Positions 7,001 through 24,721 of a DNA stretch of 64,000 bases are shown here, in pieces. Source of the DNA: an uncultured Fidelibacterota bacterium. Its GTDB lineage: Bacteria > Fidelibacterota > Marinisomatia > Marinisomatales > UBA1611. Each line of letters opens with the position of its first letter. Positions within the stretch are counted from its first letter, which is position 1. The notes below the pieces were generated by a model, which worked only from the letters and a program-made list of their open reading frames with translations, was not told the origin of the DNA and ran no database searches. The stretch covers positions 1 through 64,000 of the forward strand of contig CACEUX010000005.1 of assembly GCA_902562835.1 (NCBI GenBank), read 5' to 3'. The translations under genes and the position numbers were made by a program.

Positions 7001-7313
7001 TGACCTACCACTTGGTGAGCATTTGTTGAGATGGGTCTATGAGAAGGATGAGGCACAAAGTTCTGGAGAAGATTGTGCTTGGCTAGATATGATCCAGTTC
7101 CCAGCCGGAGCTGTGCCACCATTGAGTATTGATTTTGGTGATCTGAATTTCGATAGTATTGTAAATATTCTTGATGTCATAGTTACAGTGAATTATGTAG
7201 TTGGTCATATTGAATTAAACAATGAACAAGTCCAGAATGCTGATATGAATTTAGATGGCACAATTGATGTATTTGATATCCTCATGATCGTTGATCATGC
7301 ACTTTCCAATTAA
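4020..7313 (+). CDS. Secreted gingipain-like cysteine peptidase (C25) with dockerin-like C-terminus
   Basis: 1097-residue exported protease. A signal peptide (about residues 1-20, KLFIMTPCLLAGLTAS) precedes a propeptide-like region of about 200 residues. The peptidase C25 domain follows at about 235-580, with catalytic His436 in NYTGHGSNGSWG and Cys470 in WSVACVNGEFE, the spacing usual for gingipains. Beta-rich modules follow (about 580-1030). The last 55 residues hold two Asp/Asn-rich calcium-loop repeats (GDLNFDSIVNILD and ADMNLDGTIDVFD) like a type I dockerin. It has no YPNPFNP sorting domain, unlike two other secreted proteins in the window. It probably degrades external protein; the dockerin-like end may serve attachment or calcium-stabilised folding. 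A strong terminator follows. Confidence 0.9.
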   Translation: MKLVKKLFIMTPCLLAGLTASEWVDLGDVRPSQPIWDVNSISESNIEITFELGGYYQELLDNGKTRVSFPGGVPILERGAPEMYRMARSIIIPDLANMELSVISTDFIDIPLDNVEPSKGNLTRDVDPSTVPYTFGKAYETNEFYPKDIVFLRDPYILRSLRGQTIVFQPIQYNPIERMLRVHTHIEISIQENGQSQINALTRRPFNGGSREFENMYKEHFLNYNTDERYDVLGEQGPMLVISYGAFMDEMQTFVDWKNYKGIPTEIVDIADVGDVDDMAQLIEDEYYENGIAFVLLVGDIDQIETIRRSNGAGSNSPSDNSLTFVAGSDFYPDLIIGRFSAETGDHVQTMIDRTIAYEMNPDPSADWYKKGCGFASSQGPGDDGEDDDEHLDNIRQLLLDYTYNEIDQIYDPNGTVAQGEAAINEGRSIINYTGHGSNGSWGNGCPMNNTDVNGLVNTGMYPFIWSVACVNGEFEQGTCFAETWIRATASDGTPTGAIATLMSTVNQGWNPPMEGQDEMNAIFVESYSDNIKRTFGGLSFNGMNQMNDSYGSQGYNETYYWTIFGDPSVVVRSDTPTEMDINHSGVLIIGATDLYVETGVSGALVSVSKDGELLSSVFSDPSGNADIEFEDALSIPGSVDLVVTAYNKIPYEVSISVIAPDGAYMLMENVMVSSGTDDVLDYGEAGQLYFTFENVGSDPSEELTFSLSHGGSMVDILTENIILESVAAGDEVTVGPFEIEVSWNVEDGAHIDFTVFVTNGSDSWEFDTDVIVEAPAYQLLSTELLNDLNGTLDPGESAILQVVMKNVGHAPVIYPDFEGTTSDPHISIGNIVSDNDYLWNIDTEITLIIEVEVESDAPVGHSALTAILVGSLGTDYEYVFALPITLGIMIEDFETASFSAFEWSHGGDADWIIDADAYSGSFSARSGEISHSQTSELSILMNILYEGEIQFWSKASSEQGGSGTIYDYLEFYIDDEPQELVIGGDTDWNEYTVDLPLGEHLLRWVYEKDEAQSSGEDCAWLDMIQFPAGAVPPLSIDFGDLNFDSIVNILDVIVTVNYVVGHIELNNEQVQNADMNLDGTIDVFDILMIVDHALSN

Positions 7314-7378: not shown

Positions 7379-9796
7379 ATGATAATAAAAAGAAACATTA
7401 CTACCCCTCTTTACATGATTCCTAAACTGATACTCACTCTGATGGTTTTACAAAATATAAGTTTTGGGCAATCAGTTTATTTGAAAAATTTTGAACCTGA
7501 TTCTTTACGCTTAAAGATTGTGGATGCTCAAAGATGTGAAAAGGCACCGGTCATTGATGGGTATTTAACTGATAGTTGTTGGCAAAAGACTAAGCCGGTT
7601 GATGAGTTTTTTCAAATTGAGCCTAAAGAGCTTTCAGCACCATCAGAAAAAACATCTGCGAGGGTTAGCTATGATGATGAAGCATTATATGTATTCATAG
7701 AGTCCTTTGATTCACAACCTGAAAAAATTAAAAAAACGATGGTCCGTAGAGATAGTTGGATGGATGGGTTTGCTAATAATTCTGATTGGGTTGGTGTTAC
7801 AATTGATTCAAAGGATGACGACTATAACGGCTATTTTTTTGCAGTAAATGCATCTGGAGTAATAATGGATGTTGCTCTATCTGGTGAATGGGACTATGAC
7901 CCTACATGGAATCCAGTTTGGGACGTGAGCATTTCATTTAATGAAAGTGGATGGCATGCTGAATTCAAACTACCACTCGCTGTCTTTCAGTTTGAGAATA
8001 AGCCAAATATGCAGTGGGGAATATCATTTGAGAGAGCTATTCATCGATTGCAAGAGCGTGTCGATTGGCCCGGACGTAGTAAGTCAGTGCGGGGGCTAAT
8101 ATTACCATTGGGAATTCTAAGTGGACTGACTAATATACCCACGCCTAACCAACTTGAGGTCATACCCTATGCGTTGGCAGGTTATAGTAATAAAACCCAT
8201 CAAGACATCGGGCTGGATATGCGATATGGCTTAACCTCAAACAGCGTAATGAAAATAACTTTTAATCCAGACTTTGGTCAAGTTGAGGCAGATCCATCGG
8301 TATTAAACCTAACTGCATTTGAGACATTTTATGAAGAAAAACGGCCATTCTTTTCTGAGGGTTCTGAATTTTTTAATCACCGGATATCACTATTTAATTC
8401 ACGTAGAATTGGTAGAAGACCAAGCTATTATATACCAGATAACGGCGAGCTAGAAAACCTAGCAGACTATACTACAATACTTGGGGCTAGCAGGGTCATG
8501 GGTAGTTTGGCATCTGGTATTAATTATGGTTTTATTGGTGCTTTAACCACAGAGGAAACTGCCATCCATATTGATAGTCTTGATTCAAGAGATATTGTGG
8601 TCGAGCCAAAATCTAACTATTCTATTGGGCGTGTTGAGATACCCATGATCAATAATATTTCAAGAGTTGGGATTATGGCAACAAATGTTACCAGAGCCAA
8701 TAACGCAGGGGCCACTGTAATTGGGACAGATTGGACACTTGGGTTTTATGATAACCGATTATTCACCAATGGGCAGATCATCCATTCCAATGTAGATAGC
8801 GAAAATGGCAGTGCCTACCGTTTTAATTTTGGATATTTAGATCCTGTATGGTGGAGCTTTCGATTTTGGTATGGTACCACCGATGATAAGTTTAATATAA
8901 ATGACCTAGGATATCTTAGAAGAAATGGCACCTCTTGGACCGGTATAAGATTAGAGTTGCGTAAGCAGGAACCTTGGGGAAATTTTATCAATAATAATTT
9001 AGAGCTTAAGGTTAGTCAAAATTGGAATCAGGATGGATTAGTTATAGAAAATGAAATCGATATTGAACAAGAAAACCTGTTTTCAAATTATTGGGGTATG
9101 GGTCTATTTGGTAAAATATTTTTACCAGCATACAATGATGAAGATATATTTAGGAATGATAATGCGTGGGCATATAAGACAGAACTTTGGGGTTATGCTG
9201 GTCCAAGATTCACTACCGATCGTCGTAAGAAAATCGTCTTTGAATCTAGTATTGGTATGGGATATGGGGAAAATAGGGGCCATGGTTATAGAGCCAACTT
9301 AGAATTTGAAATGAGGCCGATCGAGCCGCTTAATATTGAAATAGAAGCTATGCAGGATAAAAGTCCCAGCTATATGCAGTGGGTCGATATTTTAGAAAAT
9401 GTAGATGATACAGTTCGAGTTTATGGAAACTCCACTCTATTGACCCGTGATATAACATTGCGTTTAGACTGGACCTTCTCTCCTAAAATATCTCTACAAT
9501 GTTTTGTTCAGCCATTCTTTGCAGATATGAACTACGAAAGGTTTTATCGTTTAAGAGCTCCTAAAACAATGGACCTTCAAGAATATGATTACCTCCAGAA
9601 TTATGAAGACCCTGATTTTAAACTTTATAATACCGTTGGAACCTTTGTATTTCGTTGGGAATATCGTCCGGGCAGTACTTTTTTCTTAGTCTATAACCTT
9701 AACCAAAGTAGTTATTACTCACCATCTGAAAAAGACTGGTCCCACGAAGATTCAAATGCTTTATATTTAAAATTAAATTATTGGTTCAAAAATTAA
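7379..9796 (+). CDS. DUF5916 outer-membrane protein with N-terminal CBM9-like domain
   Basis: 805 residues. A signal sequence ends near SFGQS (residue 31). A carbohydrate-binding-module-9-like domain follows (PVIDGYLTDSCW, about 55-250). The rest is a DUF5916 beta-barrel region with the family hallmark FYEEKRPFFSEGSEFF and many alternating aromatic strands, ending in an aromatic residue one before the C-terminus (YWFKN). The family is widespread in FCB bacteria; the substrate is unknown. The ATG at 7379 is very close to the preceding terminator. An in-frame ATG at 7415 would still leave a full signal peptide and may be the real start; neither has a Shine-Dalgarno sequence. Confidence 0.85.
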   Translation: MIIKRNITTPLYMIPKLILTLMVLQNISFGQSVYLKNFEPDSLRLKIVDAQRCEKAPVIDGYLTDSCWQKTKPVDEFFQIEPKELSAPSEKTSARVSYDDEALYVFIESFDSQPEKIKKTMVRRDSWMDGFANNSDWVGVTIDSKDDDYNGYFFAVNASGVIMDVALSGEWDYDPTWNPVWDVSISFNESGWHAEFKLPLAVFQFENKPNMQWGISFERAIHRLQERVDWPGRSKSVRGLILPLGILSGLTNIPTPNQLEVIPYALAGYSNKTHQDIGLDMRYGLTSNSVMKITFNPDFGQVEADPSVLNLTAFETFYEEKRPFFSEGSEFFNHRISLFNSRRIGRRPSYYIPDNGELENLADYTTILGASRVMGSLASGINYGFIGALTTEETAIHIDSLDSRDIVVEPKSNYSIGRVEIPMINNISRVGIMATNVTRANNAGATVIGTDWTLGFYDNRLFTNGQIIHSNVDSENGSAYRFNFGYLDPVWWSFRFWYGTTDDKFNINDLGYLRRNGTSWTGIRLELRKQEPWGNFINNNLELKVSQNWNQDGLVIENEIDIEQENLFSNYWGMGLFGKIFLPAYNDEDIFRNDNAWAYKTELWGYAGPRFTTDRRKKIVFESSIGMGYGENRGHGYRANLEFEMRPIEPLNIEIEAMQDKSPSYMQWVDILENVDDTVRVYGNSTLLTRDITLRLDWTFSPKISLQCFVQPFFADMNYERFYRLRAPKTMDLQEYDYLQNYEDPDFKLYNTVGTFVFRWEYRPGSTFFLVYNLNQSSYYSPSEKDWSHEDSNALYLKLNYWFKN

Positions 9797-9815: not shown

Positions 9816-10517
9816 ATGCTAAGTGATATTATTAATGTTGTGATCTCACTGCCAAGCCAACATTTGATCTATGGCATGATAAGTACTGTGCTTTGCATTG
9901 CAGCAGCTTGGGTTTATAGTAATAGTTCTGATAAAGTGAAACAGGTTATCCTCCAAACAATTGGATACCTTGTTGTTTTTAATGAGATTGTTTTTCAGGT
10001 CTACATGGTCTATTATGGTATCTGGTCTCTTAAAACTTCTTTGCCGATGGAGATGTGTTATTTATCAGCTTTATTAATTCCTATTTACAGTAAAAATCAA
10101 CATATAAGACTTTTAAAAACCTGGTTCTTTTTTGCGGGTTTTGGTGGTTCCTTATTTGCATTCATAAATACAAACCTTTCTGAAATGGAACACATTTACG
10201 TTTCTATCCATTACTTCTTTGCACATGGTCTTGTAATATTTGTAATGCTCAGTATCGTAGTAGATGGTTACAGGCCGAAATGGGAAGATTATTTTATTGC
10301 CATAAAATGGACAACGGTGCTTGTTATCTTTATCATTCTGACCAATTTAGTTCTGGATAGTAATTACATGTTTACATTTGAGAAGCCAGCAGGGGTCAAC
10401 TTCACACTGCTTATGCCTGATTGGCCATACTATTTTTTAATAATGCTTTGTATTGGTCTTAGTTTTTATACCTTGATGATGATAGTTTCGGTAATTTTCT
10501 TTAAGATGACAAAATAA
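9816..10517 (+). CDS. YwaF/TIGR02206-type integral membrane protein
   Basis: 233 residues with about six to seven hydrophobic helices (first at 15-35, last at 205-230). The segment SLPMEMCYLSALLIPIY matches the conserved LPLxLCxLSA-type signature of the TIGR02206/YwaF family, whose function is not established. It starts 19 bp after the DUF5916 gene on the same strand and ends exactly where the first 9-bp repeat operator begins (its TAA overlaps the repeat), so it lies just outside the repeat-controlled operon. The family assignment is from recognised motifs only. Confidence 0.7.
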   Translation: MLSDIINVVISLPSQHLIYGMISTVLCIAAAWVYSNSSDKVKQVILQTIGYLVVFNEIVFQVYMVYYGIWSLKTSLPMEMCYLSALLIPIYSKNQHIRLLKTWFFFAGFGGSLFAFINTNLSEMEHIYVSIHYFFAHGLVIFVMLSIVVDGYRPKWEDYFIAIKWTTVLVIFIILTNLVLDSNYMFTFEKPAGVNFTLLMPDWPYYFLIMLCIGLSFYTLMMIVSVIFFKMTK

Positions 10518-10568
10518 CGCTCATAACGCCTAATTTAAATTGTATTTGATTTATATTGGATATAATAT
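10516..10568 (+). promoter_or_regulatory. Tandem 9-bp repeat operator plus promoter 1 (lipid operon)
   Basis: The repeat pair AACGCTCAT AACGCCTAA occupies 10516-10533. After a 6-bp gap comes a -35-like TTGTAT at 10540-10545 and, 17 bp on, a -10-like TAATAT at 10563-10568 (TATAAT at 10561 would give 15 bp). The layout matches three other sites at 18919, 19973 and 24663. Transcription would begin near 10575 and read ten tightly packed genes to 18918. Repeats centred about 50 bp upstream of the start point suit activation better than simple blocking of polymerase. The binding protein is inferred, not shown. Confidence 0.7.
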
Positions 10569-10585
10569 TTAAGTAAGAGAACAAT

Positions 10586-11107
10586 ATGAAAACTATAGTA
10601 AATGTTTTAGGATTTAAGATAAGTTGGTGGGCATGCGTTTTAGGGGCTACAAGTGGCTCAGAATACCTTGGTCCTATAGCTATGGCAATATTTTTAGCTC
10701 TCCACTTCAACTTTAATGTGTCAAACAATTCAGAGATTAAACTTATTTTGATATTTGCGGTTTTAGGCACTATGATAGATACGTTAATGGCATCTACGAA
10801 GTTGATAGGTTATGTTGGTTTATATAGTGATGATATTATCATTGCTCCTTTGTGGATCACAGCTATGTGGTGCGGTTTCGCTGCCATGGTCAATCATTCA
10901 TTGGCATGGTTTAAAGATAAATGGTCTTCTTCATTCCTTTTTGGTTTTATAGGAGGTCCTCTGGCATATATTGGAGGGGAAAAAATTGGTGCTATATATT
11001 TTAATTCAGGACTCACAGAGGTCTCTGTCATGCTTGCTGTAGTTTGGGGAGGTAGTATCCCTATGATGTTTTGGGTCAATGACAGACTAGGTTTAGGAAA
11101 TAAATGA
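10586..11107 (+). CDS. DUF2878 family membrane protein
   Basis: 173 residues with about five hydrophobic helices. KISWWACVLGA near the N-terminus, API/PLWITAMWCGFA in the middle and GGPLAYIGGEKIGA near residue 130 are DUF2878 signatures. The family has no known enzymatic role. It usually lies beside DUF1365, FAD amine-oxidase and cyclopropane-fatty-acid-synthase genes, as here, which suggests an inner-membrane role in lipid modification. It is first gene of the operon driven by promoter 1, and its stop overlaps the next start (ATGA). Confidence 0.8.
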   Translation: MKTIVNVLGFKISWWACVLGATSGSEYLGPIAMAIFLALHFNFNVSNNSEIKLILIFAVLGTMIDTLMASTKLIGYVGLYSDDIIIAPLWITAMWCGFAAMVNHSLAWFKDKWSSSFLFGFIGGPLAYIGGEKIGAIYFNSGLTEVSVMLAVVWGGSIPMMFWVNDRLGLGNK

Positions 11108-11814
11108 GCGGGGTAATATCAAAAATAAATATTGCTACCCTCCTCTTTGTTCTTGGTCATGGATCGGCTGAGACCAAAGACTTAAGAACCGAGCAATTAT
11201 TTCAAGATCTTCACGATAATATAGGTTGGATTGTTGAGGATTCTAAAGATGGTATTTCTTTAAGTAGAAAACCGATCCAAGGCATGGGTCTCAAGGCAGT
11301 GATGGTTGCAAAAAAAACAATGATTCCTAGAGAAATAATCCAAAGTGTAATAATGGATGTGGGTAATTATGAAAATTTTTTAAAAAGTATAGGGCCTATT
11401 CGTTCTAAGGAAGTTCAAAGGTCAAGCGATTGGGTAGATGGGTACCAATTCATTCCCATTGACCTACCCTTGATTGGCGATCGTGAATACTTATTTCGAA
11501 TGTACTCTTACGGATACAACAGTGGGGATACCACATCTATTATCCATTGGCATTTGCTGGAAAAAAGAGACGACGTCCTGGTTGGGCTCAATAATCAAAA
11601 TAATAATCGAGTCTATTTAGACCATGGTGCAGGATTATGGATGGCTGAGGAAACTCTAAGTGATACTATAATCTTATCCTACAGGATTTATATGGATCCC
11701 GGAGGTGCATTACCAGAGTTTTTAGTTGATATGATGAATAAAGTCAGTGTGATGAATATATTTAAAGATGCAATAGCAGAAGCCAAACTTAGACAAGATA
11801 TAATTGTTCAGTAG
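11104..11814 (+). CDS. START/SRPBCC-type lipid-binding protein, secreted or periplasmic
   Basis: 236 residues. A hydrophobic N-terminus (INIATLLFVLGHGSAE) looks like a signal peptide. The rest resembles the START domain: WIVEDSKDGISLSRKPI, then SDWVDGYQFIPIDLPLIGDREYLFRMY and the final helix FLVDMMNKVSVMNIFKDAIAEA. START domains hold a hydrophobic ligand such as a lipid. It overlaps the DUF2878 gene by 4 bp and lies 12 bp before the lipocalin gene, so a role in moving or sensing modified lipid across the periplasm is plausible but inferred. Confidence 0.75.
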   Translation: MSGVISKINIATLLFVLGHGSAETKDLRTEQLFQDLHDNIGWIVEDSKDGISLSRKPIQGMGLKAVMVAKKTMIPREIIQSVIMDVGNYENFLKSIGPIRSKEVQRSSDWVDGYQFIPIDLPLIGDREYLFRMYSYGYNSGDTTSIIHWHLLEKRDDVLVGLNNQNNNRVYLDHGAGLWMAEETLSDTIILSYRIYMDPGGALPEFLVDMMNKVSVMNIFKDAIAEAKLRQDIIVQ

Positions 11815-11826
11815 TTACTTATTATT

Positions 11827-12372
11827 TTGAAATATATAATCTTAATTTTTGCTTTGCTTATTCCTTTTTTAGTGATTAATTGTAACGATAGTGCCTCCAG
11901 TGAATTACCTGAAATGAAGACAGTCGAATATGTAGATATAGAACGTTATATGGGAGACTGGTATGTGATCGCAAATATTCCCACTTTCATTGAGAAGAGG
12001 GCAACAAATGCGATCGAATCTTATCGACTCAGGGATGGAGGTATTATTGAAACAACTTTTTCCTTTTACGAGGATTCACCAGATGGCGAAAAAAAGATTT
12101 ACAAGCCCACTGGATATATTCATAACAAAGAGACAAATGCAGAGTGGAGGATGCAATTTGTATGGCCGTTTAAAATGCCTTTTCTTATTATTGCCCTTGA
12201 TGAAGATTATGAATATACTGTTATAGGTTACCCCTCAAGAAAGTACGTTTGGATAATGGCTCGAAAACCACAAATGTCAGATGAGGTATACAGTAGTATC
12301 ATTAGTGACCTCGACGAGATTGGGTATGATATTTCAAAGATTAACAAGGTTCCACAATTTTGGAAATTATAA
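11827..12372 (+). CDS. blc: Outer-membrane lipoprotein lipocalin (Blc-like)
   Basis: 181 residues from a TTG start. The lipobox FLVINC puts the acylated Cys at residue 19. The lipocalin hallmark GxWY is in ERYMGDWYVIANIP, and the C-terminal MARKPQMSDEVYSSIISDLDEIGYD matches bacterial Blc. Blc-type lipocalins bind fatty acids or lysophospholipids and are induced by envelope stress. Its place among fatty-acid-modifying genes fits storage or transport of altered acyl chains. Confidence 0.9.
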   Translation: MKYIILIFALLIPFLVINCNDSASSELPEMKTVEYVDIERYMGDWYVIANIPTFIEKRATNAIESYRLRDGGIIETTFSFYEDSPDGEKKIYKPTGYIHNKETNAEWRMQFVWPFKMPFLIIALDEDYEYTVIGYPSRKYVWIMARKPQMSDEVYSSIISDLDEIGYDISKINKVPQFWKL

Positions 12373-12378
12373 TCTAAA

Positions 12379-13629
12379 ATGAAGATTGCAATTATAGGCT
12401 CAGGAATTTCTGGCCTCACTACTGCTTATTTACTTAGCAGGAATCACGACATAATCATGTTTGAAAAGAATGACTATATAGGAGGTCACACCCATACCCA
12501 TGAGATAAATCATGAAGGAAAAAGTTTATCTGTAGATTCAGGCTTTATTGTTTACAATGAACGAACGTATCCAAACTTTATTAAACTTCTAGATCAACTT
12601 GGAGTTGAGCGCCAGTTAACAAGAATGGGGTTTAGTGTAAAATCTGAAAGAGATGATCTAGAATATGCTGGGCATTCTCTGAATGGACTTTTTGCACAAA
12701 GGTCAAATATCTTCAGACCATCTTTCATAAGGATGCTAGGGAGTATGAATCGTTTTAATCAAGAGTCTAGAAAAGATCTTCCTTCAATCGACTCTAAAAT
12801 GACATTGGGCGATTATTTATTAAAAAACAATTATTCAACAGAATTCATTCAGCATTTTATTATTCCTATCGGAGCCGCAATATGGTCTACTGTCCCCACT
12901 GATATGATGAATATTCCGGCTCTTTTCTTTATTAGATTCTTTGAAAATCACGGCCTACTTCAAATAATAAATAGACCAAATTGGTGGGTGATCAAAGGAG
13001 GGTCAAAAAGATATGTGGATAAGATCATTGCCAAATTCAAAGATAAAATAAGACTTTCAACACCTGTGAAAAATGTCAAGCGGGATAAAGATTTAGTTAC
13101 GATCAGCTTTGGAATAGATGGTGAAAATGAAGAAGACTTTGATGCAGTGGTATTTGCAACCCACAGTGACCAGTCGCTTGCGCTTTTGGAGCAGCCGACA
13201 ACAGACGAAGTAGAAATATTGGGTTCTATTATTTATCAGAATAATGATGCTATACTGCATTTTGATGATACTATTTTACCTAAAAGGAAAACAGCATGGT
13301 CCAGCTGGAATTATTTATTAGACCAAGATCAAAGTAAGCCTGTGGCATTAACTTACAACATGAACATTTTGCAGGGAATTGTTAGCACAAAAACCTTCTG
13401 TGTGACATTGAACACTAAAGAACTAATCGATCCTGAGAAGGTCATCAAATATCTCAATTATGAGCACCCGCTTTTTACCCTCTCTAGCCTAAGAGCACAA
13501 GAGCAAAAAAGCAAGATCAGTGGAAAAAATAACACCTATTATTGTGGAGCATATTGGCATAATGGTTTCCATGAAGATGGTGTGGTCAGTGCGTTAGACG
13601 TTTGTAGCCACTTTGGAGAAACATTGTGA
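12379..13629 (+). CDS. FAD-dependent amine-oxidase-like oxidoreductase (COG2907)
   Basis: 416 residues. The N-terminal dinucleotide-binding motif is IAIIGSGISGLTTAYLLS, followed by the FEKNDYIGGH ribose-binding Glu. FIVYNERTYPNF and the C-terminal YYCGAYWHNGFHEDGVVSA are typical of the COG2907 clade. The family is almost always next to DUF1365 and a cyclopropane-fatty-acid-synthase homologue, as here, and is thought to oxidise or desaturate membrane acyl chains; the exact reaction is not settled. Its last 4 bases overlap the DUF1365 gene (GTGA), implying translational coupling. FAD could come from the riboflavin operon about 20 kb away. Confidence 0.85.
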   Translation: MKIAIIGSGISGLTTAYLLSRNHDIIMFEKNDYIGGHTHTHEINHEGKSLSVDSGFIVYNERTYPNFIKLLDQLGVERQLTRMGFSVKSERDDLEYAGHSLNGLFAQRSNIFRPSFIRMLGSMNRFNQESRKDLPSIDSKMTLGDYLLKNNYSTEFIQHFIIPIGAAIWSTVPTDMMNIPALFFIRFFENHGLLQIINRPNWWVIKGGSKRYVDKIIAKFKDKIRLSTPVKNVKRDKDLVTISFGIDGENEEDFDAVVFATHSDQSLALLEQPTTDEVEILGSIIYQNNDAILHFDDTILPKRKTAWSSWNYLLDQDQSKPVALTYNMNILQGIVSTKTFCVTLNTKELIDPEKVIKYLNYEHPLFTLSSLRAQEQKSKISGKNNTYYCGAYWHNGFHEDGVVSALDVCSHFGETL

Positions 13630-14408
13630 GTATTTCTAACAAAAGTTTTATCTTTAGGGGTACCATTCGTCATAGGCGATTCACTCCCTTTAACCATTTT
13701 TTTACCTATCCTATTTTCATGATTTTTGTTGACCTTAATACCATTAAGAAAACTCTCAAACGCTCATGGCTATGGAATATTGATAAGCCAGCTATGATAT
13801 CTTTTAATCGAGATGATTATCATGGCGCAGGGGAAGGAGAGCTTGATTTGTCTGTTCGTAAAACAATTCGTGAACAAATTGGTTATGAGGTGAAAGGGCC
13901 TATAAGGTTGCTTACGCATTTAAGATATTTCGGGTATTGTTTTAACCCAGTGAGTTTTTACTATTGTTTTAATGAGGACGATTCTGAAGTTGATGTGATA
14001 ATGGCCGAGGTTACAAACACTCCTTGGGATGAGCGGCATTCTTATGTTATCCATCAGAAAGGTCAAAAAGGTAAAATAGATAATCTTACTGCTGATCTAA
14101 AAAAGAAATTGCACGTAAGTCCATTTTGGGGAATGGATCATGATTATGAATGGCTTTTTAGTCAACCTACAAAGAATCTAATGGTCAATATGATAAATTA
14201 TAAAGACGAAGAAAGGGTTTTTGATGCTACATTAAATATGAAAAGAATACCGTTTACTCTAGGGAATCTCCTTAGGCAAGTAGCCAGATTTCCATTTATT
14301 ACTATGCTGGTAGTGTTTCGTATCCATTGGCAGGCATTTAAACTATGGTTGAAAAAAGCACCCTACTTCATACATCCTGATAAAATCAATCTAATGAAAG
14401 GTAATTAA
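13626..14408 (+). CDS. DUF1365 family protein
   Basis: 260 residues starting at GTG (overlaps the previous stop). Conserved DUF1365 features are RGTIRHRRFTPFNHFFTYPIFM at the N-terminus, DRDDYHG-type NRDDYHGAGEG, LLTHLRYFGYCFNPVSFYYCF and a MAEVTNTPWDERHSYV segment. The function of the family is unknown; it is found with COG2907 flavoproteins and cyclopropane-fatty-acid synthases and has been linked by context to membrane fatty-acid modification. No signal peptide. Confidence 0.9.
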   Translation: MSISNKSFIFRGTIRHRRFTPFNHFFTYPIFMIFVDLNTIKKTLKRSWLWNIDKPAMISFNRDDYHGAGEGELDLSVRKTIREQIGYEVKGPIRLLTHLRYFGYCFNPVSFYYCFNEDDSEVDVIMAEVTNTPWDERHSYVIHQKGQKGKIDNLTADLKKKLHVSPFWGMDHDYEWLFSQPTKNLMVNMINYKDEERVFDATLNMKRIPFTLGNLLRQVARFPFITMLVVFRIHWQAFKLWLKKAPYFIHPDKINLMKGN

Positions 14409-14412
14409 TCAA

Positions 14413-15684
14413 ATGAGTACAACTTTCCAAGTTGATCATCTTGCAGATGCGGTCAAGACACCTAAGAAATCAACTTTTCTAACGTCTATCTTTAAAAGTG
14501 GGCTACAGAAAAAATTCAAAAATCTAAAAACGGGACACATTTCCATAAACGATGGTGATGAGACTTTCTCCTTTGGCGATGGTAGCTCAGATGAAAAAGT
14601 ATCTGTAGATATTCATTCACAGGAATTTTATGTCATGACAGGAAGTGGAGGTGCTCTTGGAATAGCAGAGGCTTATGTTGCTGGATATTGGTCCTCAGAT
14701 GATGTGGTAAAACTTTTTCAAATAATTTTAAGGAACAGGGATATCCTACTTTCTCTTGAAAAGGGTTTTGCTAAACTTGTCAAACCGATCAATAAAATGA
14801 TTCACCGTCGCCGGCAAAATACACTTAAAGGAAGTAAAGAGAATATTTTAGCACATTATGACCTTAGCAACGATTTTTACAAGTTATGGCTGGACCCTTC
14901 AATGACATATTCTTGTGCCTTTTTTAATAATGATTCTGTCACACTTGAAGAGGCTTCAATAGAAAAATTAGATCGCATATGTAGAAAGCTAGACCTGTCA
15001 GAGGATGATTCTGTGCTCGAGATAGGAACTGGCTGGGGTAGCTTTTCTATCCATGCTGCAAAGAATTATGGTTGTAAGGTTACCACAACCACTATTTCAG
15101 ATGCGCAGTTCGATTACGCAAGGTCGCGTATTAAAGATGAAGGGTTGGAATCAAAGATCACGCTCATAAATAAGGATTATCGTGATTTGGATGGGAAATA
15201 TGATAAGATTGTATCTATAGAAATGATAGAAGCAGTTGGGTATGAATACATACCTGATTATTTCTCAAAATTGTCATCCTTATTAAAAAATAATGGACTT
15301 GTTGCCTTGCAGGGCATTACATATAATGATCAAAACTTTGAGGTTTATAAGAATTCAGTAGATTTCATCAAAAAATATATTTTTCCAGGTTCTTGTTTAA
15401 TATCTATTGCACAGATAATTGATGTAATTAAAAAAGATACTGATCTGGCAATGGTCGATATGGAAGATATCACAAAGCACTATGCTGTAACATTAAATAG
15501 ATGGAGAAAGAATTTTATGGATGTGATTCCAAAGGTCAAAGAAATGGGATATTCTCAAGCGTTCATTAATATGTGGGAATTTTACTTTTTATACTGTGAG
15601 GCTGGTTTTTCAGAAAGAAATATTGGAGATGTCCAAATGATATTCGCAAAATCGGGTTCCAGAAACATTAACATTAGTTATTAA
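14413..15684 (+). CDS. cfa: Cyclopropane-fatty-acyl-phospholipid synthase family methyltransferase
   Basis: 423 residues, about the length of E. coli Cfa. An N-terminal lipid-binding domain (about 1-140) precedes NILAHYDLSNDFYKLWLDPSMTYS and the SAM-binding motif VLEIGTGWGSFSIHAA (about residue 203). EMIEAVGYEYIPDYF and the C-terminal FYFLYCEAGFSERNIGDVQ are Cfa signatures. It methylates or cyclopropanates unsaturated acyl chains in phospholipid. Relatives in this kind of cluster also make 11-methyl acyl chains that lead to furan fatty acids in Rhodobacter; sequence alone cannot tell which product is formed. Confidence 0.9.
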   Translation: MSTTFQVDHLADAVKTPKKSTFLTSIFKSGLQKKFKNLKTGHISINDGDETFSFGDGSSDEKVSVDIHSQEFYVMTGSGGALGIAEAYVAGYWSSDDVVKLFQIILRNRDILLSLEKGFAKLVKPINKMIHRRRQNTLKGSKENILAHYDLSNDFYKLWLDPSMTYSCAFFNNDSVTLEEASIEKLDRICRKLDLSEDDSVLEIGTGWGSFSIHAAKNYGCKVTTTTISDAQFDYARSRIKDEGLESKITLINKDYRDLDGKYDKIVSIEMIEAVGYEYIPDYFSKLSSLLKNNGLVALQGITYNDQNFEVYKNSVDFIKKYIFPGSCLISIAQIIDVIKKDTDLAMVDMEDITKHYAVTLNRWRKNFMDVIPKVKEMGYSQAFINMWEFYFLYCEAGFSERNIGDVQMIFAKSGSRNINISY

Positions 15685-15687
15685 AAC

Positions 15688-16722
15688 ATGATATCAAAAT
15701 TAATTCAACTAGCAGAGAATGGTTTATTACCTGATTTTATGGTCAGGGCAGGTATTGTTAGGAACTGCAAGGTTAGACTTCAAAATGAAAGTTCTTATTC
15801 TCTAGAGCAATTAAAGGAAAGAAAATTAAAATGGGTCGACCAGATGAAAGAAAGCCCCATCGCTCTTGTTCCTGAAAAAGCAAATCAGCAACATTATGAA
15901 GTACCGCCTTCCTTTTTTGACGAGGTTTTAGGATCGAACCTTAAATATAGTTCGGGCTTTTGGCCTCAAACAGTTACCACATTGGATGAATCTGAGTTAG
16001 CCATGCTAGAGCTAAGCTGCGAAAGAGCAGAATTAGAAAATGGCCAAAATATATTAGAATTGGGATGCGGTTGGGGCTCTCTAACTTGTTATATGGCTAG
16101 CCAATACCCAAAAAGTCAAATTACAGCAGTCAGTAATTCTAAGGACCAGAGAGAGTATATCTTAAAACGATGTAGCAAATCTGGTTTGAATAATGTGAAT
16201 GTGATCACTGCAGATATGAATGATTTTACCGTTGAACAAATGTATGACCGGGTTGTTTCAATAGAAATGTTTGAACATATGCGTAATTATAAAAAACTTT
16301 TATCCAAAATCTCGTGCTTATTGAAAGATGATGGTAAACTATTCATTCATATATTTACTCACAAAGACGTCGTCTACCCTTTTGAGAATAATGGAGAAGC
16401 AGATTGGATGGCGAGAGAATTTTTTTCTGGAGGGATGATGCCTTCTCACGACCTGTTTGAATATTTTCAAGATGATCTTAAAATAGAAGAGAGCTGGAGG
16501 ATGTCTGGAACTCATTATGAAAAAACATCTCTGGCCTGGTTAAAAAAAATGGATAAAAATAAAAGTAATGTTATGGAAATTTTTTCGCATACCTATGGCT
16601 CAGAGGAAGCAAAAAAGTGGTTCCAGAGGTGGCGCATATTCTTTATGTCCTGTGAAAAATTATTTGGATTTAAAAATGGAACAGAATGGGGTGTGTCTCA
16701 TTACCGTTTCACAAAAGGTTAA
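15688..16722 (+). CDS. Second Cfa-family SAM-dependent methyltransferase
   Basis: 344 residues, lacking the long N-terminal lipid-binding domain of the gene just upstream. QQHYEVPPSFFDEVLGSNLKYS, the SAM motif ILELGCGWGSLTCYMA (about residue 127), SIEMFEHMRNYKKLL and a C-terminal WRIFFMSCEKLFG identify a COG2230 methyltransferase of the short type (also similar to coclaurine N-methyltransferase-like proteins). It starts 3 bp after the first Cfa gene. Two non-identical Cfa-type enzymes in tandem suggest successive or different methylations, but this is inferred. Confidence 0.85.
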   Translation: MISKLIQLAENGLLPDFMVRAGIVRNCKVRLQNESSYSLEQLKERKLKWVDQMKESPIALVPEKANQQHYEVPPSFFDEVLGSNLKYSSGFWPQTVTTLDESELAMLELSCERAELENGQNILELGCGWGSLTCYMASQYPKSQITAVSNSKDQREYILKRCSKSGLNNVNVITADMNDFTVEQMYDRVVSIEMFEHMRNYKKLLSKISCLLKDDGKLFIHIFTHKDVVYPFENNGEADWMAREFFSGGMMPSHDLFEYFQDDLKIEESWRMSGTHYEKTSLAWLKKMDKNKSNVMEIFSHTYGSEEAKKWFQRWRIFFMSCEKLFGFKNGTEWGVSHYRFTKG

Positions 16723-16730
16723 TTTAAGCA

Positions 16731-17447
16731 ATGGTAATACTGATATTTATTTTCTTACACTGGTACCTCTCACTATTTTTTCAGACATTTTTTTTACATC
16801 GATATGCATCTCATAATATGTTCAAGATGAGCCCATTTTGGGAAAAAGTATTTTTCCTTCTAACATTCATTTTTCAAGGTTCCTCATTTTTGCATCCCGC
16901 GGCATATGCTGTAATGCATAGACGCCATCATTCATTTGCAGATACACCAAAAGATCCTCACTCACCAGTTCATCTAAAGAATATTATTTCTTTTAATCTA
17001 GCAACTGTGACAGAATACAGAAAGCTAGTTAAAGAATTCCTGAAAGGCGGAAGAACCATATCAGATGCACCCAGGTGGTATACTTTAGAATGGTTTGCAG
17101 AATCTGTATGGACCAGAGTTGCCTTTATTATTTTATATTTTCTATTCTATGTTCAATTTGCTACCTCAACATGGCAGTTCTTTTTATTTCCCCTGCACAT
17201 TTTTATGGGTTCCATGCATGGATTCATTGTCAACTGGTTTGGACATAAAACAGGTTATAGAAATTTTGACTCTGTACCTGACAACTCAAAAAATACCCTA
17301 CCTCTTGATTTTTTAATGATGGGTGAATTGTATCAGAACAATCATCATAGAAGTCCTAGAGAACCTAACTTTGCAGTGCGGTGGTTCGAATTGGATTTTG
17401 GTTATATTGCAACTCTGGCGCTTAAAAGACTTAGAATTATATATTAA
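16731..17447 (+). CDS. Membrane fatty-acid desaturase
   Basis: 238 residues with four hydrophobic segments. The three histidine boxes of acyl-lipid/acyl-CoA desaturases are present: HRYASH (23-28), HRRHH (63-67) and NNHHR near residue 204, the last followed by SPREPNFAVRWFELDFGY. Such di-iron enzymes use O2 to introduce a cis double bond. It is 8 bp downstream of the second methyltransferase. It may supply the unsaturated substrate for methylation or desaturate a methylated chain. Confidence 0.9.
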   Translation: MVILIFIFLHWYLSLFFQTFFLHRYASHNMFKMSPFWEKVFFLLTFIFQGSSFLHPAAYAVMHRRHHSFADTPKDPHSPVHLKNIISFNLATVTEYRKLVKEFLKGGRTISDAPRWYTLEWFAESVWTRVAFIILYFLFYVQFATSTWQFFLFPLHIFMGSMHGFIVNWFGHKTGYRNFDSVPDNSKNTLPLDFLMMGELYQNNHHRSPREPNFAVRWFELDFGYIATLALKRLRIIY

Positions 17448-17452
17448 AAAAT

Positions 17453-18334
17453 ATGTCAAAAAATATTAGAGACTATATCAGTGTAATTATAGCGTTTTTC
17501 ATAGGTGCATTGATCGCAATTGGAGGTTCTCAGAACGGGGCACAATATAATGGTTATCCTATTTTATTTATCTGCCTGATAATCAGTTTTGTCTTACACT
17601 GGATCGCTTTCATACCGGCATATTTAGCTAGGACAGAAAAGTTTTATGATATAGCAGGGACTGTTGCATATCTTTCAGTTTTAGCAACAGCATCTTATTT
17701 AACAGTGATCTCATCGAATAATAATTTACAGTTGAGATCTATTATAGTCATTATTCTTGTATTAATATGGGCATTAAGGTTAGGTCTATTTCTTTTCGTT
17801 CGCGTATTAAAGGCAGGAGAAGATCGAAGATTTCGTGAAGTAAAACAAAATTTCTCTAAGTTTCTTGTATGGTGGAGTGTATCAGCCTTGTGGGTCTTCC
17901 TAACCGCAGCAAACGCATTAACAATGATCATAAATAATGTGAGCTTTACCGATGACTTCTATTTCTATTTTGGTCTATCCCTTTGGTTGATAGGTTTTTC
18001 TTTTGAGGCCATAGCAGATGAACAAAAAAGAAGATTTAAATCTGATAAGAAAAACAAGGATGCATTTATTTCAACTGGTTTATGGGGTCTTTCTAGGCAT
18101 CCAAATTATTTTGGTGAAATACTTCTCTGGATAGGAATGGCAGTTATAGCTTTGCCCACTTTAGTTGGATGGCAATACGTAACATTGATATCACCAATAT
18201 TCATTTACTTTTTGCTCACAAGAGTTAGTGGTGTGAATCTCTTGGAAGATCGTGCAAACCAGAAATGGGGTGGCACTGAAGAATATGAATCATACGTAAA
18301 GAAAACTCCTGTGCTTATACCTTTAACAAAATAA
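17453..18334 (+). CDS. DUF1295 family membrane protein (steroid-reductase-like fold)
   Basis: 293 residues with six to seven hydrophobic helices. The C-terminal LSRHPNYFGEILLWIGMAVIALP is the hallmark of DUF1295 and of the isoprenylcysteine methyltransferase/steroid 5-alpha-reductase fold, which binds a nucleotide cofactor at this segment. GEDRRFREVKQNFSKFLVWW is also family-typical. An NADPH-dependent reduction or SAM-dependent methylation of a lipid is possible; no substrate is known. It is the ninth gene of the promoter 1 operon. Confidence 0.85.
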   Translation: MSKNIRDYISVIIAFFIGALIAIGGSQNGAQYNGYPILFICLIISFVLHWIAFIPAYLARTEKFYDIAGTVAYLSVLATASYLTVISSNNNLQLRSIIVIILVLIWALRLGLFLFVRVLKAGEDRRFREVKQNFSKFLVWWSVSALWVFLTAANALTMIINNVSFTDDFYFYFGLSLWLIGFSFEAIADEQKRRFKSDKKNKDAFISTGLWGLSRHPNYFGEILLWIGMAVIALPTLVGWQYVTLISPIFIYFLLTRVSGVNLLEDRANQKWGGTEEYESYVKKTPVLIPLTK

Positions 18335-18345
18335 GAGTTTTATGA

Positions 18346-18918
18346 ATGCTCCGTTTTACTATTATTATCGCTTCCTTCGTATTTTTTTTACATGATCCAA
18401 TTATGGCTATTGAGACACCGAATTTTCAATTATTAAAAAAAGAAGGCAAGTTTGAGATCCGTGAATATGAGCCAATGATCATTGCTGTGACAAAAGTAAA
18501 TAGTAATTACAGGGAGGCATCTTCAACAGGGTTTAGGAGGATAGCTAATTATATTTTTGGCGGTAATCAAAAAAAGATGGAAATTAAGATGACGGCACCT
18601 GTTATTTTAGGTGTCCCCAATTCGAACGATATATATGAGATACTTTTTGTAATGCCCTCCCAACATTCCCTTGAGGAATTACCAGCGCCTGATCAATCTA
18701 ATGTTGAGTTAAAGGTAAAAGAGATGGGGAAAACAGCTGTTATAAAGTTTGGTGGTTGGGCGACAGAGAGTAGGGCAACTTATTATAAAAAAAGGTTAGA
18801 AGACTTTGTTAAAAATAGTGGCTTTACATTAAATAGTGATTATATGGTCGCACAATACAACTCACCATGGGCGTTACCACCATTTCGAAAGAATGAAATA
18901 ATTGTGATGATAAAATAA
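18346..18918 (+). CDS. SOUL heme-binding-family protein, exported
   Basis: 190 residues with a signal peptide (about 1-21, ending PIMAIE). ETPNFQLLKKEGKFEIREYEPMIIAVT, KIEMTAPV-like MEIKMTAPVILG and the C-terminal YNSPWALPPFRKNEI are SOUL/HEBP signatures. Members bind heme or tetrapyrroles in some organisms. In a light-stress cluster it may bind a photosensitising tetrapyrrole in the periplasm, which is inference. It is last gene of the operon, and the second repeat operator begins directly after its stop. Confidence 0.85.
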   Translation: MLRFTIIIASFVFFLHDPIMAIETPNFQLLKKEGKFEIREYEPMIIAVTKVNSNYREASSTGFRRIANYIFGGNQKKMEIKMTAPVILGVPNSNDIYEILFVMPSQHSLEELPAPDQSNVELKVKEMGKTAVIKFGGWATESRATYYKKRLEDFVKNSGFTLNSDYMVAQYNSPWALPPFRKNEIIVMIK

Positions 18919-18972
18919 AACGCTCATAACGCTTATTTAGTGCTTGTTGCGTGTAAATTTAATTTTTAAGAT
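18919..18972 (+). promoter_or_regulatory. Tandem 9-bp repeat operator plus promoter 2
   Basis: AACGCTCAT AACGCTTAT at 18919-18936, then 7 bp, then TTGTTG at 18944-18949, 17 bp and TAAGAT at 18967-18972. This is the same geometry as the sites at 19973 and 24663. Transcription would start near 18979, so the in-frame TTG at 18973 would lie upstream of the mRNA start and cannot begin the next protein from this promoter. Confidence 0.7.
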
Positions 18973-18996
18973 TTGAAAGTGAACTTAGAGAATAGT

Positions 18997-19488
18997 ATGT
19001 TATTTGAGCAAAAAGTAATATTAAAAGGTATAGACCCTCTAGATGTAATAAGGTCCTTTCATGACCGTAGGTTTGTGGAGTTCCTCACTGCTTTGCAGCC
19101 TGTGAAGATACAAAGCTGGGTTGGAATCAATAATAACATGAAAGCATCGTTCTCGTTCTGGTTCTTAGGATGGAGGCAGATAGAGGTTGAGCACAAGAAT
19201 TATAAGGTTTCTAAGAATCATCTTCATTTCGAAGATAGAGGATTAGTTCTTCCATTTGGATTATCTAGTTGGAGACATCATCATATTATAGAGAAACATA
19301 ATAATGGAACTACTATTACAGATAAAGTTGAAATGGGCATTCAAAGTTTATGGTTAAGATATCTTATTTTTCCCATAATGTTATTTCCAATATTTATTAG
19401 GCGTTTAACATATAGATTCTGGTTTTACCTGATGGAGGGGAAGACCTGGATATCATCTAAAAGGTTTTTAACAAATGAAAAGATTTAG
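18997..19488 (+). CDS. SRPBCC-family ligand-binding protein (COG4276-like)
   Basis: About 163 residues from ATG 18997. The frame is open further up (GTG 18979, TTG 18973), but promoter 2 makes the TTG unusable, and related proteins begin close to the segment FEQKVILKGIDPLDVIRSFHDRRF. The body has the SRPBCC pattern: QPVKIQSWVGINNNMKASFSFWFLG, HLHFEDRGLVLPFGLSSWRHHHIIE and a C-terminal amphipathic helix FIRRLTYRFWFYLMEGK. Such folds bind hydrophobic ligands. It overlaps the next gene by 14 bp. Function unknown. Confidence 0.65.
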   Translation: MLFEQKVILKGIDPLDVIRSFHDRRFVEFLTALQPVKIQSWVGINNNMKASFSFWFLGWRQIEVEHKNYKVSKNHLHFEDRGLVLPFGLSSWRHHHIIEKHNNGTTITDKVEMGIQSLWLRYLIFPIMLFPIFIRRLTYRFWFYLMEGKTWISSKRFLTNEKI

Positions 19489-19954
19489 CCCCTTTCCCTT
19501 ATTATTGCTTCTGTCATGTGAGTCAGAAAATAATTCTGCACAACTCTTGGAAAGTCAAAAGTGGGTCTCAAAAGATAGATTTAGGACTGAGGTCTGGTTT
19601 CAAGACTGGTCCAGTTATACACGCCTATTTATCAAAACTTTCAAAGATACATCTGAAATCAGTCCAAGTCCTTATGTCACAAGAACAAAGAATAAACCAT
19701 ACCTATATCCTAAACCTTACATGGATTTTGAAATCGAACAATTGATTGGAAACCTAGAATGGGACGGGGATGTCTCGTGGAAAAATGGTCATGAAAACAC
19801 ATTTTTATGGGAAGTTGACAGAAGTAATCCTAAAAAACTGTTACCCATTAAATATAATGGTACCGCTACAATTGTTAATGGAAGGTTAAGTCTAAAAGTA
19901 AAAGAAAGTGATAGCCTAATATCTGACATTCTACTAGACCCAATCTCATATTAA
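19475..19954 (+). CDS. Putative lipoprotein, function unknown
   Basis: 159 residues. The short charged start MKRF, hydrophobic stretch PFPLLLLLS and Cys15 make a lipoprotein signal peptide (LLLSC). The mature part is rich in Trp, Tyr and beta-strand pattern (KWVSKDRFRTEVWFQDWSS) and resembles no family I recognise. It overlaps the SRPBCC gene by 14 bp and shares its promoter 2, so the two probably form a two-gene transcript. It may be an envelope partner of the SRPBCC protein. Confidence 0.6.
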   Translation: MKRFSPFPLLLLLSCESENNSAQLLESQKWVSKDRFRTEVWFQDWSSYTRLFIKTFKDTSEISPSPYVTRTKNKPYLYPKPYMDFEIEQLIGNLEWDGDVSWKNGHENTFLWEVDRSNPKKLLPIKYNGTATIVNGRLSLKVKESDSLISDILLDPISY

Positions 19955-21834: not shown

Positions 21835-22425
21835 ATGTTAAATACTCCCTGGAGGAAAATATTAATGGTCAGTTTCATTGTAACAGCAGTGTCTGGTTTC
21901 GCTTCAGTCTTGTTCAGTAAGAGCTCCATATCAGCCGAACCTGGAGTAAAATCCCATAGCTCATTTTATGATATCAAGTTATACAACATAGATGATGAGC
22001 AAATTCAGTTAGACCAATTCAAGGGTAAGAAAGTAATTATTGTAAATGTTGCTTCACGGTGTGGCTACACATCCCAATATAAAAAACTACAAGAGCTCTA
22101 TGAAAAACACGGTAACAAATTGGAGATAATTGCTGTCCCCTGTAACGACTTCGGATACCAAGAACCAGGCACAGCCAACCAGATAAAAGATTTCTGTGAG
22201 CTTAATTACGGTGTCACATTTTCAATCGCATCAAAACAAAAAATCAAATCATCACCCCAAAGTTACCTGTACAACTGGCTTTCCGATCCAAAATTGAATG
22301 GATGGAACGACCAGTTGCCCTCCTGGAATTTTTGTAAATATGTGGTTAGTGAAAAAGGAGAGTTGATGCATTTTTTCAGAAGTAGTGTTGATCCACTCAG
22401 TAAAGAATTCCTCAATACCTTATAG
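21835..22425 (+). CDS. Glutathione-peroxidase-family thiol peroxidase, membrane-anchored or exported
   Basis: 196 residues. A hydrophobic N-terminus (KILMVSFIVTAVSGFASVLF, 8-27) is a signal or anchor. The peroxidatic Cys76 lies in NVASRCGYTSQY, the second motif is VPCNDFGYQEPG (Gln109, Cys103) and the Trp/Asn motif is SWNFCKYVV. It reduces hydroperoxides, probably lipid hydroperoxides, at the membrane or in the periplasm; most bacterial members use thioredoxin rather than glutathione. Its presence with desaturase and photolyase genes fits repair of photo-oxidised lipids. Confidence 0.9.
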   Translation: MLNTPWRKILMVSFIVTAVSGFASVLFSKSSISAEPGVKSHSSFYDIKLYNIDDEQIQLDQFKGKKVIIVNVASRCGYTSQYKKLQELYEKHGNKLEIIAVPCNDFGYQEPGTANQIKDFCELNYGVTFSIASKQKIKSSPQSYLYNWLSDPKLNGWNDQLPSWNFCKYVVSEKGELMHFFRSSVDPLSKEFLNTL

Positions 22426-24716: not shown

Positions 24717-24721
24717 TTGCT

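Follow-up and report, generated by a model that had tools for sequence, protein, structure and literature searches.

The question posed by this locus is why five genes for proteins with hydrophobic-ligand-binding folds lie together on one strand, and whether they form a single trafficking route across the periplasm, as originally predicted, or a looser set of parts. The window analyzed here is 64,000 nucleotides of contig CACEUX010000005.1 (positions 1 to 64,000, assembly GCA_902562835.1) from an uncultured Fidelibacterota bacterium, and positions 9816-19954 within it hold 13 co-directional genes that are nowhere more than 78 bp apart. All five genes are where they were predicted to be, between 11104 and 19954 on the + strand, and each product fits a fold of this kind: START-like, Blc-type lipocalin, SOUL, helix-grip (SRPBCC) and a predicted lipocalin-like barrel. 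Interspersed with them are genes of UfaD, UfaO and UfaM type, together with those for a further methyltransferase, a desaturase and a DUF1295 protein. Separate searches of the host genome (1.83 Mb, 78% complete) found one copy of each of the five, and the chance of five single genes falling at random within 8.85 kb is about 3e-9, a post hoc figure that leaves general SRPBCC families uncounted. The stronger argument is conserved gene order, in that relatives, some of them from other families within the order, share the arrangement DUF2878-START-lipocalin-UfaD-UfaO-CMAS1-CMAS2.

With these interspersed enzymes, the run is a probable furan-fatty-acid cluster of one Ca. Marinimicrobia genome. In Rhodobacter sphaeroides three enzymes, the DUF1365 protein UfaO, the NAD/FAD-binding UfaD and the SAM methylase UfaM, suffice for furan fatty acid synthesis on phospholipids, so that carriers are not needed for synthesis in that organism (PMC7380195). 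In the same species, deleting three operon companions did not alter the fatty acid profile. The window's FAD amine-oxidase-type gene (12379-13629, +; PF01593, 1.4e-22) directly precedes the DUF1365 gene (13626-14408, +; PF07103, 3.4e-78) with a 4 bp overlap, as in the described ufaD-ufaO pair, and its UfaD assignment is at family level, made against the family profile and not the R. sphaeroides UfaD sequence itself. The UfaM candidate is a CFA-synthase-type methyltransferase (14413-15684, +; PF02353, 6.8e-85) whose best PDB match is CFA synthase (6.9e-63), a match that does not separate methylating from cyclopropane-forming enzymes. The second SAM methyltransferase (15688-16722, +) is a FufM candidate on the basis of its PDB matches, the best being coclaurine N-methyltransferase (7.9e-74) and CFA synthases reaching at best 7.6e-28; the plant protein AT4G33110 is presumably itself of the coclaurine N-methyltransferase kind. 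FufM has been reported to resemble AT4G33110 (PMC10940516). A fatty acid desaturase family protein (16731-17447, +; PF00487, 1.1e-13) and a DUF1295 membrane protein (17453-18334, +; PF06966, 3.5e-57) complete this group. The furan cluster itself is ordinary; the novelty is the DUF2878-START pair.

That pair comprises a DUF2878 membrane protein (10586-11107, +; PF11086, 4.6e-37), identified as the START partner by adjacency, and a START-like, probably exported lipid-binding protein (11104-11814, +), the genes overlapping by 4 bp. The START-like protein has no Pfam match of its own, and in an 11-member family alignment that includes it two members match PF01852 (best 3.6e-5); against the PDB the family profile finds first the STAR-related protein 3qsz, weakly (E 0.004), and also 1ln1 (0.0099). 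The Blc-type lipocalin (11827-12372, +, TTG start; PF08212, Lipocalin_2, 1.2e-38) has TIL1 and then Blc as best PDB matches and is a predicted lipoprotein with an atypical lipobox, VINC, a loose lipobox being present in 18 of 29 lipocalin ORFs of relatives, paralogues included. PDB profile searches with the SRPBCC and lipoprotein alignments gave no match at E<=1, and structure prediction was therefore used for both. The lipoprotein candidate (19475-19954, +; lipobox LLSC in the window, and a lipobox in two of seven orthologues) yields an AlphaFold model (pLDDT 77) resembling lipocalin/calycin barrels, with VIA Z of 11.4 to 5jk2 and about 9 to nitrophorins, Foldseek alone reaching a best E of 0.012. 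Its identification with the DUF3833 lipoprotein of proteobacterial furan clusters, plausible by eye, was rejected at an hhalign probability of 1, the two alignments compared being shallow (5 and 4 sequences). The SRPBCC protein (18997-19488, +) has no Pfam match over cut-off; its predicted structure (AlphaFold, pLDDT 84) has the helix-grip fold, and Foldseek matches it to 83 PDB chains at E<=0.001. Its likely start is ATG 18997 rather than TTG 18973. That most of the five carry export signals held for four of them, among which the START signal of the window is the least pronounced, its best 12-residue hydropathy being 1.78; the SRPBCC protein has no signal and is predicted to be cytosolic. Nine loci (L028-L034, L036, L037) repeat genomes fetched elsewhere and entered the export-signal count twice, and the motif and residue check covers loci other than L028-L037.

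Whether the five constitute one unit was addressed with searches of 199 genomes of the phylum, all run at identical settings and assumed to span one and the same genome set. UfaO is found in 17, of which 9 have a strong START match, 12 have SOUL, 13 lipocalin and 14 DUF2878; a START match is strong at 100 bits or more (20 of 38 matches, two partial genes at contig ends included), and SRPBCC was counted from the 12 strong matches among 26. START lies inside the cluster in only 7 of the 17 UfaO genomes, with an eighth (G168) split by a contig end, and at five UfaD loci uncut at that point (L041-L045) neither START nor lipocalin stands beside UfaD. These frequencies come from the 199-genome set because L012-L027 were fetched for holding START and give no unbiased estimate. 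Each of the five occurs with UfaO more often than expected, by Fisher values that ignore shared ancestry, so that co-occurrence across genomes is borne out in part. As a single unit, however, the five do not hold together: START with DUF2878, and in places the lipocalin, is separable, SOUL is linked more loosely than START is to DUF2878, and the SRPBCC and lipoprotein genes occur as a pair only within the family of the window. One alternative is that these are separate stress genes which are merely co-induced, their products loosely sharing a ligand class and never acting together. In its favor, SOUL occurs in 14 genomes and lipocalin in 59 without UfaO, relatives of the SRPBCC protein and the lipoprotein are found at other places, and in other phyla different ligand-binding folds accompany the same enzymes. 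The last point derives from 13 ufaD-ufaO plasmid regions, hand-picked from 98 records with DUF1365 (one of them via a DUF2878 search), among whose annotated genes, in an incomplete gene table, START and SOUL do not appear. A search for START on plasmids produced a single Pontibacter place, without annotated DUF1365 in the 16 kb shown, and was set aside. We regard co-induction alone as unlikely, since the START-DUF2878 pairing is too tight for it and is met in three different contexts.

Of the 23 genomes that have both START and DUF2878, 21 have them side by side, and not solely at furan genes; DUF2878 occurs without START in 26 of 49 genomes counted, two of 51 being left out (G044, a fragment with stops, and G122, under the cut-off). 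Besides the furan context, DUF2878-START-(DUF1295)-lipocalin is followed at five loci without furan genes by a FakA-FakB-like fusion and at a sixth by a partial homologue (Pfam was run on two of these), and at two further loci without furan genes DUF2878-START precedes a glutathione peroxidase. What these contexts have in common is a concern with fatty acyl chains and the oxidation of lipids. For the genome of the window itself (78% complete) a fatty-acid kinase was considered and rejected, as a DegV search there was empty, so that the kinase link is not seen in this organism. Scanning named genomes with one narrow peptide pattern from the START alignment, which says nothing on absence from other phyla, found 10 loci; Marinimicrobia or Neomarinimicrobiota stands in the title of eight, and the other two are called "bacterium TMED46" and "uncultured bacterium". 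A literature search for DUF2878 with "START domain" found no paper. It is possible, though we hold it doubtful, that DUF2878 and its START/helix-grip protein are a lipid-transfer pair of the bacterial envelope not described before, salvaging acyl chains that have been modified or oxidised and serving furan synthesis, FakA-FakB and an envelope glutathione peroxidase alike. If so, a membrane partner and a soluble periplasmic carrier would be plugged into different acyl-lipid pathways, and an uncharacterised membrane family would gain a concrete partner.

The nature of the ligand, predicted to be modified acyl chains or a tetrapyrrole, can be narrowed from the SOUL protein and from the genes around it. 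The SOUL-family protein, probably exported (18346-18918, +; PF04832, 6e-46), has HEBP2 as nearest solved structure (9.7e-13), and in the alignment to HEBP2 a glutamate occupies the place of the histidine that we take to be number 42. His42 is the heme ligand of mouse SOUL, in a family that includes heme binders (PMC6321638). Histidine is absent from this place in all 28 SOUL sequences compared, and the tetrapyrrole alternative is weakened accordingly. According to that alternative, the SOUL protein and the lipocalin would capture a photosensitiser, free porphyrin or heme, and clear it from the envelope, START and SRPBCC being incidental. E. coli Blc is reported to bind heme at low micromolar levels, with a different tetrapyrrole suggested as its possible main ligand (PMC8177097), one Ensifer plasmid carries ferrochelatase and lipocalin near DUF1365, and a Shewanella ferrochelatase paralogue is co-regulated with a periplasmic glutathione peroxidase (PMC4336711). 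Against this, START-lipocalin is accompanied by acyl-lipid genes and a gene resembling fatty-acid kinase, and a reading of those loci, made without a dedicated heme-gene search, brought no heme gene to notice. We consider tetrapyrrole handling unlikely and favour an acyl-lipid ligand; the five proteins do share an operon-like run with enzymes for modified acyl chains. Four papers were found on "furan fatty acid" with lipocalin, and by titles and abstract starts they concern diabetes, obesity, ewe follicular cysts and kidney disease.

The route originally proposed, a traffic of modified acyl chains on carriers that connect the lipid of the outer membrane with enzymes of the inner one, finds some encouragement in the START, SOUL and lipoprotein lipocalins, which look exported and are encoded next to membrane enzymes. 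Upstream lies a TMEM164-family integral membrane protein (9816-10517, +; PF14808, 5.7e-30; an acyltransferase family according to the literature), dropped as a cluster-specific partner because the family is too common to count, being present in 154 of the 199 genomes. A DUF5916 gene (7379-9796), of what we take to be a likely outer-membrane barrel family, lies 19 bp upstream of it, and the two are neighbors in eight family loci fetched (L012, L013, L015-L019, L024). In other families read, however, DUF5916 is never directly beside DUF2878-START, the nearest case being a DUF5916-like ORF two genes away (L048), the SRPBCC protein lacks export, and R. sphaeroides carries out furan chemistry on phospholipid chains without carriers (PMC7380195). 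We consider such a route very unlikely.

Photolyases and a glutathione peroxidase lie near the Ca. Marinimicrobia cluster. In the window these are a glutathione peroxidase (21835-22425, +; PF00255, 4.2e-32), likely envelope-facing given an N-terminal hydrophobic segment seen by eye, a photolyase-related protein (DPRP; 22531-24015, +; PF04244, 3.1e-48) and a DNA photolyase (25635-26984, +; PF00875, 2.6e-27). Between the last two is a MerR and B12-binding-domain regulator (24707-25606, +; PF13411 over and PF02310 under cut-off) with degenerate light-sensing residues; it was rejected as a CarH/LitR B12 photoreceptor, the equivalents of W131, E141-H142 and H177 (PMC11796333) being missing in it and in six close orthologues. 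The explanation that we prefer, at somewhat less than an even chance, is that a furan-fatty-acid cluster set among genes for light and oxidation stress has taken on accessory proteins of the envelope that bind acyl lipids. Gene content, folds (some of them only predicted), likely export, conserved linkage and modularity are observed; the ligands, the direction of movement and every biochemical step we infer. The UfaM-, UfaD- and UfaO-like enzymes, perhaps with the FufM-like methylase, would alter acyl chains of inner-membrane phospholipids. DUF2878 and the exported START-like protein, as a pair, would remove an acyl lipid, whether modified, oxidised or released, from the periplasmic leaflet or insert it there. 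The lipocalin and the lipocalin-like lipoprotein might buffer such lipids in the periplasm, close to the glutathione peroxidase, which could reduce lipid hydroperoxides. SOUL would bind some amphipathic ligand, and the cytosolic SRPBCC protein may serve at the inner side. Encoded beside enzymes that would turn membrane fatty acids into protective furan fatty acids, the five proteins look like auxiliary components for dealing, under light stress, with membrane lipids that are modified or damaged, and they are built as separable modules and not as one new transport route. With three different acyl-lipid partners, DUF2878-START gives the furan accessory genes a testable job, the proposed one being to handle acyl lipids, during photo-oxidative stress, on the side of the inner membrane that faces the periplasm.

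Several known systems are close. The R. sphaeroides RSP1091-1087 operon with UfaM shares the UfaD-type FAD enzyme, the DUF1365 UfaO and, as a candidate, the SAM acyl methylase with the window; it differs in that the available passages of its description mention no START, SOUL, SRPBCC or lipocalin, three enzymes being enough, and in being ChrR-linked, whereas the window cluster adjoins a MerR-type regulator (PMC7380195). The cluster on Acinetobacter haemolyticus plasmid p4 (L081) has nearly the same set of enzymes plus a lipocalin, with lipocalin, desaturase, FAD enzyme, DUF1365, CFA-type, DUF1295 and class I methyltransferase genes, but START, DUF2878, SOUL and SRPBCC are not among its annotated genes and chalcone-isomerase and NTF2-like genes are nearby instead. 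The Shewanella SO_3374-SO_3386 operon of the RpoE2-ChrR regulon, like the window, brings together a photolyase and a CFA-type gene, and the regulon likewise includes a periplasmic glutathione peroxidase, although under sigma factor control (PMC4336711). E. coli Blc belongs to the same family as the window lipocalin and is among its best solved relatives. In Burkholderia BcnA-LcoA, a periplasmic lipocalin tied genetically to a membrane protein guards envelope lipids from peroxidation, the partners there being a YceI-type lipocalin and a cytochrome b561, and in the window START and DUF2878 (PMC9113575).

The five genes from which a trafficking route had been proposed lie in a run of 13 (9816-19954), all on the plus strand and no more than 78 bp apart, several of them overlapping. 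In order, the run encodes a TMEM164-family protein (9816-10517), a DUF2878 protein, a START-like protein (11104-11814), a Lipocalin_2 protein, an FAD amine oxidase, a DUF1365 protein, two CMAS-type methyltransferases, a fatty acid desaturase, a DUF1295 protein, a SOUL protein, an SRPBCC protein (18997-19488) and a lipoprotein (19475-19954), all assigned by Pfam except the START-like, SRPBCC and lipoprotein genes, which have no match of their own over the cut-off. On the 3' side follow a weak glyoxalase-like gene, an SDR, a glutathione peroxidase, a DPRP photolyase-related gene, a regulator with MerR and B12-binding domains, and a DNA photolyase. The host genome is 1.83 Mb and 78% complete, and the named genomes nearest to the window are Ca. 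Marinimicrobia (Neomarinimicrobiota), the closest being 'bacterium TMED46' with 91% identity in START.

Upstream of the run is a Gingipain-like C25 peptidase with propeptide and dockerin domain (4020-7313), and relatives have an ORF some 1,100 residues long at the corresponding position. A DUF5916 protein with a CBM9 domain (7379-9796) ends 19 bp before the TMEM164 gene, an arrangement kept in eight loci of the window's family; we take this protein to be possibly an outer-membrane barrel, which, if true, would bear on a route across the envelope. The TMEM164-family protein, which adjoins DUF2878, is a possible lipid transacylase by analogy, since human TMEM164 and LhaT of Bacillus, which belong to its superfamily, are described as acyl transferases (PMC12345273).

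That five ligand-binding or lipoprotein genes cluster here is confirmed and slightly strengthened, as the fifth also looks lipocalin-like. The lipocalin and SOUL proteins are clear members of their families. The START-like call comes through the family, with PF01852 matching two of 11 alignment members and STAR-related 3qsz found at E 0.004, and the SRPBCC identity is supported by a predicted helix-grip fold. The predicted barrel of the lipoprotein scores Z 11.4 to Tp0751, 9.3 to APCDD1 and about 9 to nitrophorins; with Foldseek alone the best E is 0.012, so its lipocalin-like barrel should be read as a moderate model. In line with the original remark that most of the five have export signals, four of them look exported. 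A crude hydropathy test (cut-off 1.8, no signal-peptide predictor), run on the distinct full-length ORFs of relatives together with paralogues, detects a hydrophobic N-terminal stretch in 23 of 24 START, 29 of 29 lipocalin, 25 of 26 SOUL and 6 of 7 lipoprotein ORFs, but in none of 10 SRPBCC ORFs. The window START itself, at 1.78, falls just below the cut-off, and that of a locus from the same genus, with ambiguous residues, reaches 1.49 (L012). A lipobox is found in the window lipoprotein and in two of seven relatives, and is absent from those in L015, L016 and L019.

The order DUF2878-START-lipocalin-UfaD-UfaO-CMAS1-CMAS2, in which UfaO is the DUF1365 protein and CMAS1 and CMAS2 are the two methyltransferases, recurs, among loci fetched around START matches, both in the window's family and in other families of the order (L021, L022, L023), with DUF1295 interposed between START and lipocalin in L022. 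Among 199 genomes of the phylum, UfaO is found in 17, the START profile in 38 (20 at 100 bits or more), SOUL in 26, lipocalin in 72, TMEM164 in 154, the SRPBCC profile in 26 (12 strong), DUF2878 in 51 and the lipoprotein in six, every one in the window's family. The 17 UfaO genomes include nine with strong START, 12 with SOUL, 13 with lipocalin, 14 with DUF2878, six with SRPBCC and five with the lipoprotein (one-sided Fisher 5e-4 to 7e-9, values that ignore shared ancestry); by match coordinates, START lies near UfaO on the same contig in 7 of 17, lipocalin in 9 and SOUL in 8. Co-occurrence across the phylum is therefore real but partial, and the five proteins are a patchwork of modules, not one unit.

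The tightest link of all is that of START with DUF2878, and this pair is the part worth following. Of the 38 START genomes, 23 have DUF2878, and the two matches lie 33-105 bp apart in 21 of them, the exceptions being G010, where START sits at the end of a contig, and G170, with a weak match elsewhere; the 15 START genomes without DUF2878 comprise 13 with weak START matches and two with strong ones (G168, G142). A START match is missing from 26 of 49 DUF2878 genomes counted, and in 14 of these 26, all of family f15, the SRPBCC profile matches weakly, at about 20 bits, 39-117 bp away from DUF2878. In three of these loci (L092-L094), and in L098, which shares their genus, the neighbour of DUF2878 carries, as judged by eye, a hydrophobic anchor at its N-terminus; that of L092 has no Pfam match. 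We read the link as a unit of DUF2878 and a helix-grip protein, tentatively so in f15. In families f20 and f27 a DUF2878-START-(DUF1295)-lipocalin run stands away from the furan genes, and is followed by a Dak2-DegV fusion that resembles a one-chain FakA-FakB fatty acid kinase in five loci (L050-L053, L055) and by a partial homologue in L054; L097 has an ORF of matching length in that place. The run in L095 and L096 consists of an SRPBCC-like gene (by eye similar to that of L092; Pfam, run on L095 only, gave no match), an NAD epimerase, DUF2878, START and a glutathione peroxidase. An NAD epimerase-like gene lies directly 5' of DUF2878 in these two loci and in L099 and L100, and its surroundings include genes for an SRPBCC-like protein, START, glutathione peroxidase or YceI (YceI PF04264 at 4.3e-18 in L100).

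As to the ligand, the acyl enzymes, the fatty-acid-kinase-like neighbour, the peroxidase and the affinity of Blc for lysophospholipid, quoted as nanomolar in PMC8177097, favour an acyl lipid, which is probably the ligand class. A tetrapyrrole, the other cargo proposed, would fit the membership of SOUL in a heme-binding family, and Blc is reported in the same source to bind heme as well, at low micromolar levels; yet the place of His42, described as the ligand of mouse SOUL (PMC6321638), holds Glu in the window and no His in 28 aligned Marinimicrobia SOUL sequences (the site lies outside a partial 29th sequence), which weakens this alternative. The original interpretation is supported in part: acyl lipid is the probable ligand class, but the set consists of separable modules, and the proposed route from one membrane to the other is hypothetical.

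We infer light control of the cluster from the two photolyase-type genes in the neighbourhood; surface-water Marinimicrobia are reported to have acquired photolyases (PMC6143742). The MerR/B12-domain regulator (24707-25606) and six close orthologues (L040, L058, L072, L075, L076, L077) lack the tryptophan, the Glu-His pair and the His that ligates cobalt in CarH-type photoreceptors, the adenosylcobalamin light-sensing residues of TtCarH being given as W131, E141, H142 and H177 (PMC11796333). Because these residues are missing, direct B12 light sensing by the window regulator appears unlikely, and its signal may be a different one. In an alignment of 14 sequences, six homologues at greater distance, from other loci with furan or SOUL genes, retain the residues (L022, L023, L049, L060, L063, L071), and that of L057 retains Glu-His only.

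In Rhodobacter sphaeroides, UfaM, UfaD and UfaO are described as sufficient to turn phospholipid-bound cis-vaccenate into a monomethyl furan fatty acid, UfaO being a DUF1365 protein, and deletion of RSP1087, RSP1088 or RSP1089 as giving no detectable change (PMC7380195). All three families are represented in the window. The first methyltransferase is nearest to CFA synthases and the second to coclaurine N-methyltransferases (E 7.9e-74); since FufM, the dimethyl-furan methylase, is said to resemble plant AT4G33110 (PMC10940516), the second is a possible FufM candidate. The mobilizable plasmid p4 of Acinetobacter haemolyticus (L081) carries nearly the same furan enzymes with a lipocalin and a desaturase, flanked on both sides by transposase genes. 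Among 13 plasmid regions with DUF1365, chosen from 98 records and counted from an incomplete gene table without a control set, genes annotated nearby include lipocalin (5), DUF3833 (4), NTF2-like (5), chalcone isomerase (3), DUF2878 (5) and ChrR anti-sigma (6), START and SOUL being annotated in none; in eight regions one or more of the lipocalin, DUF3833, NTF2-like and chalcone isomerase genes are annotated. Ligand-binding companions therefore recur with furan enzymes, their folds differing between phyla. The probable furan cluster of the window is a further example of an already known cluster type.
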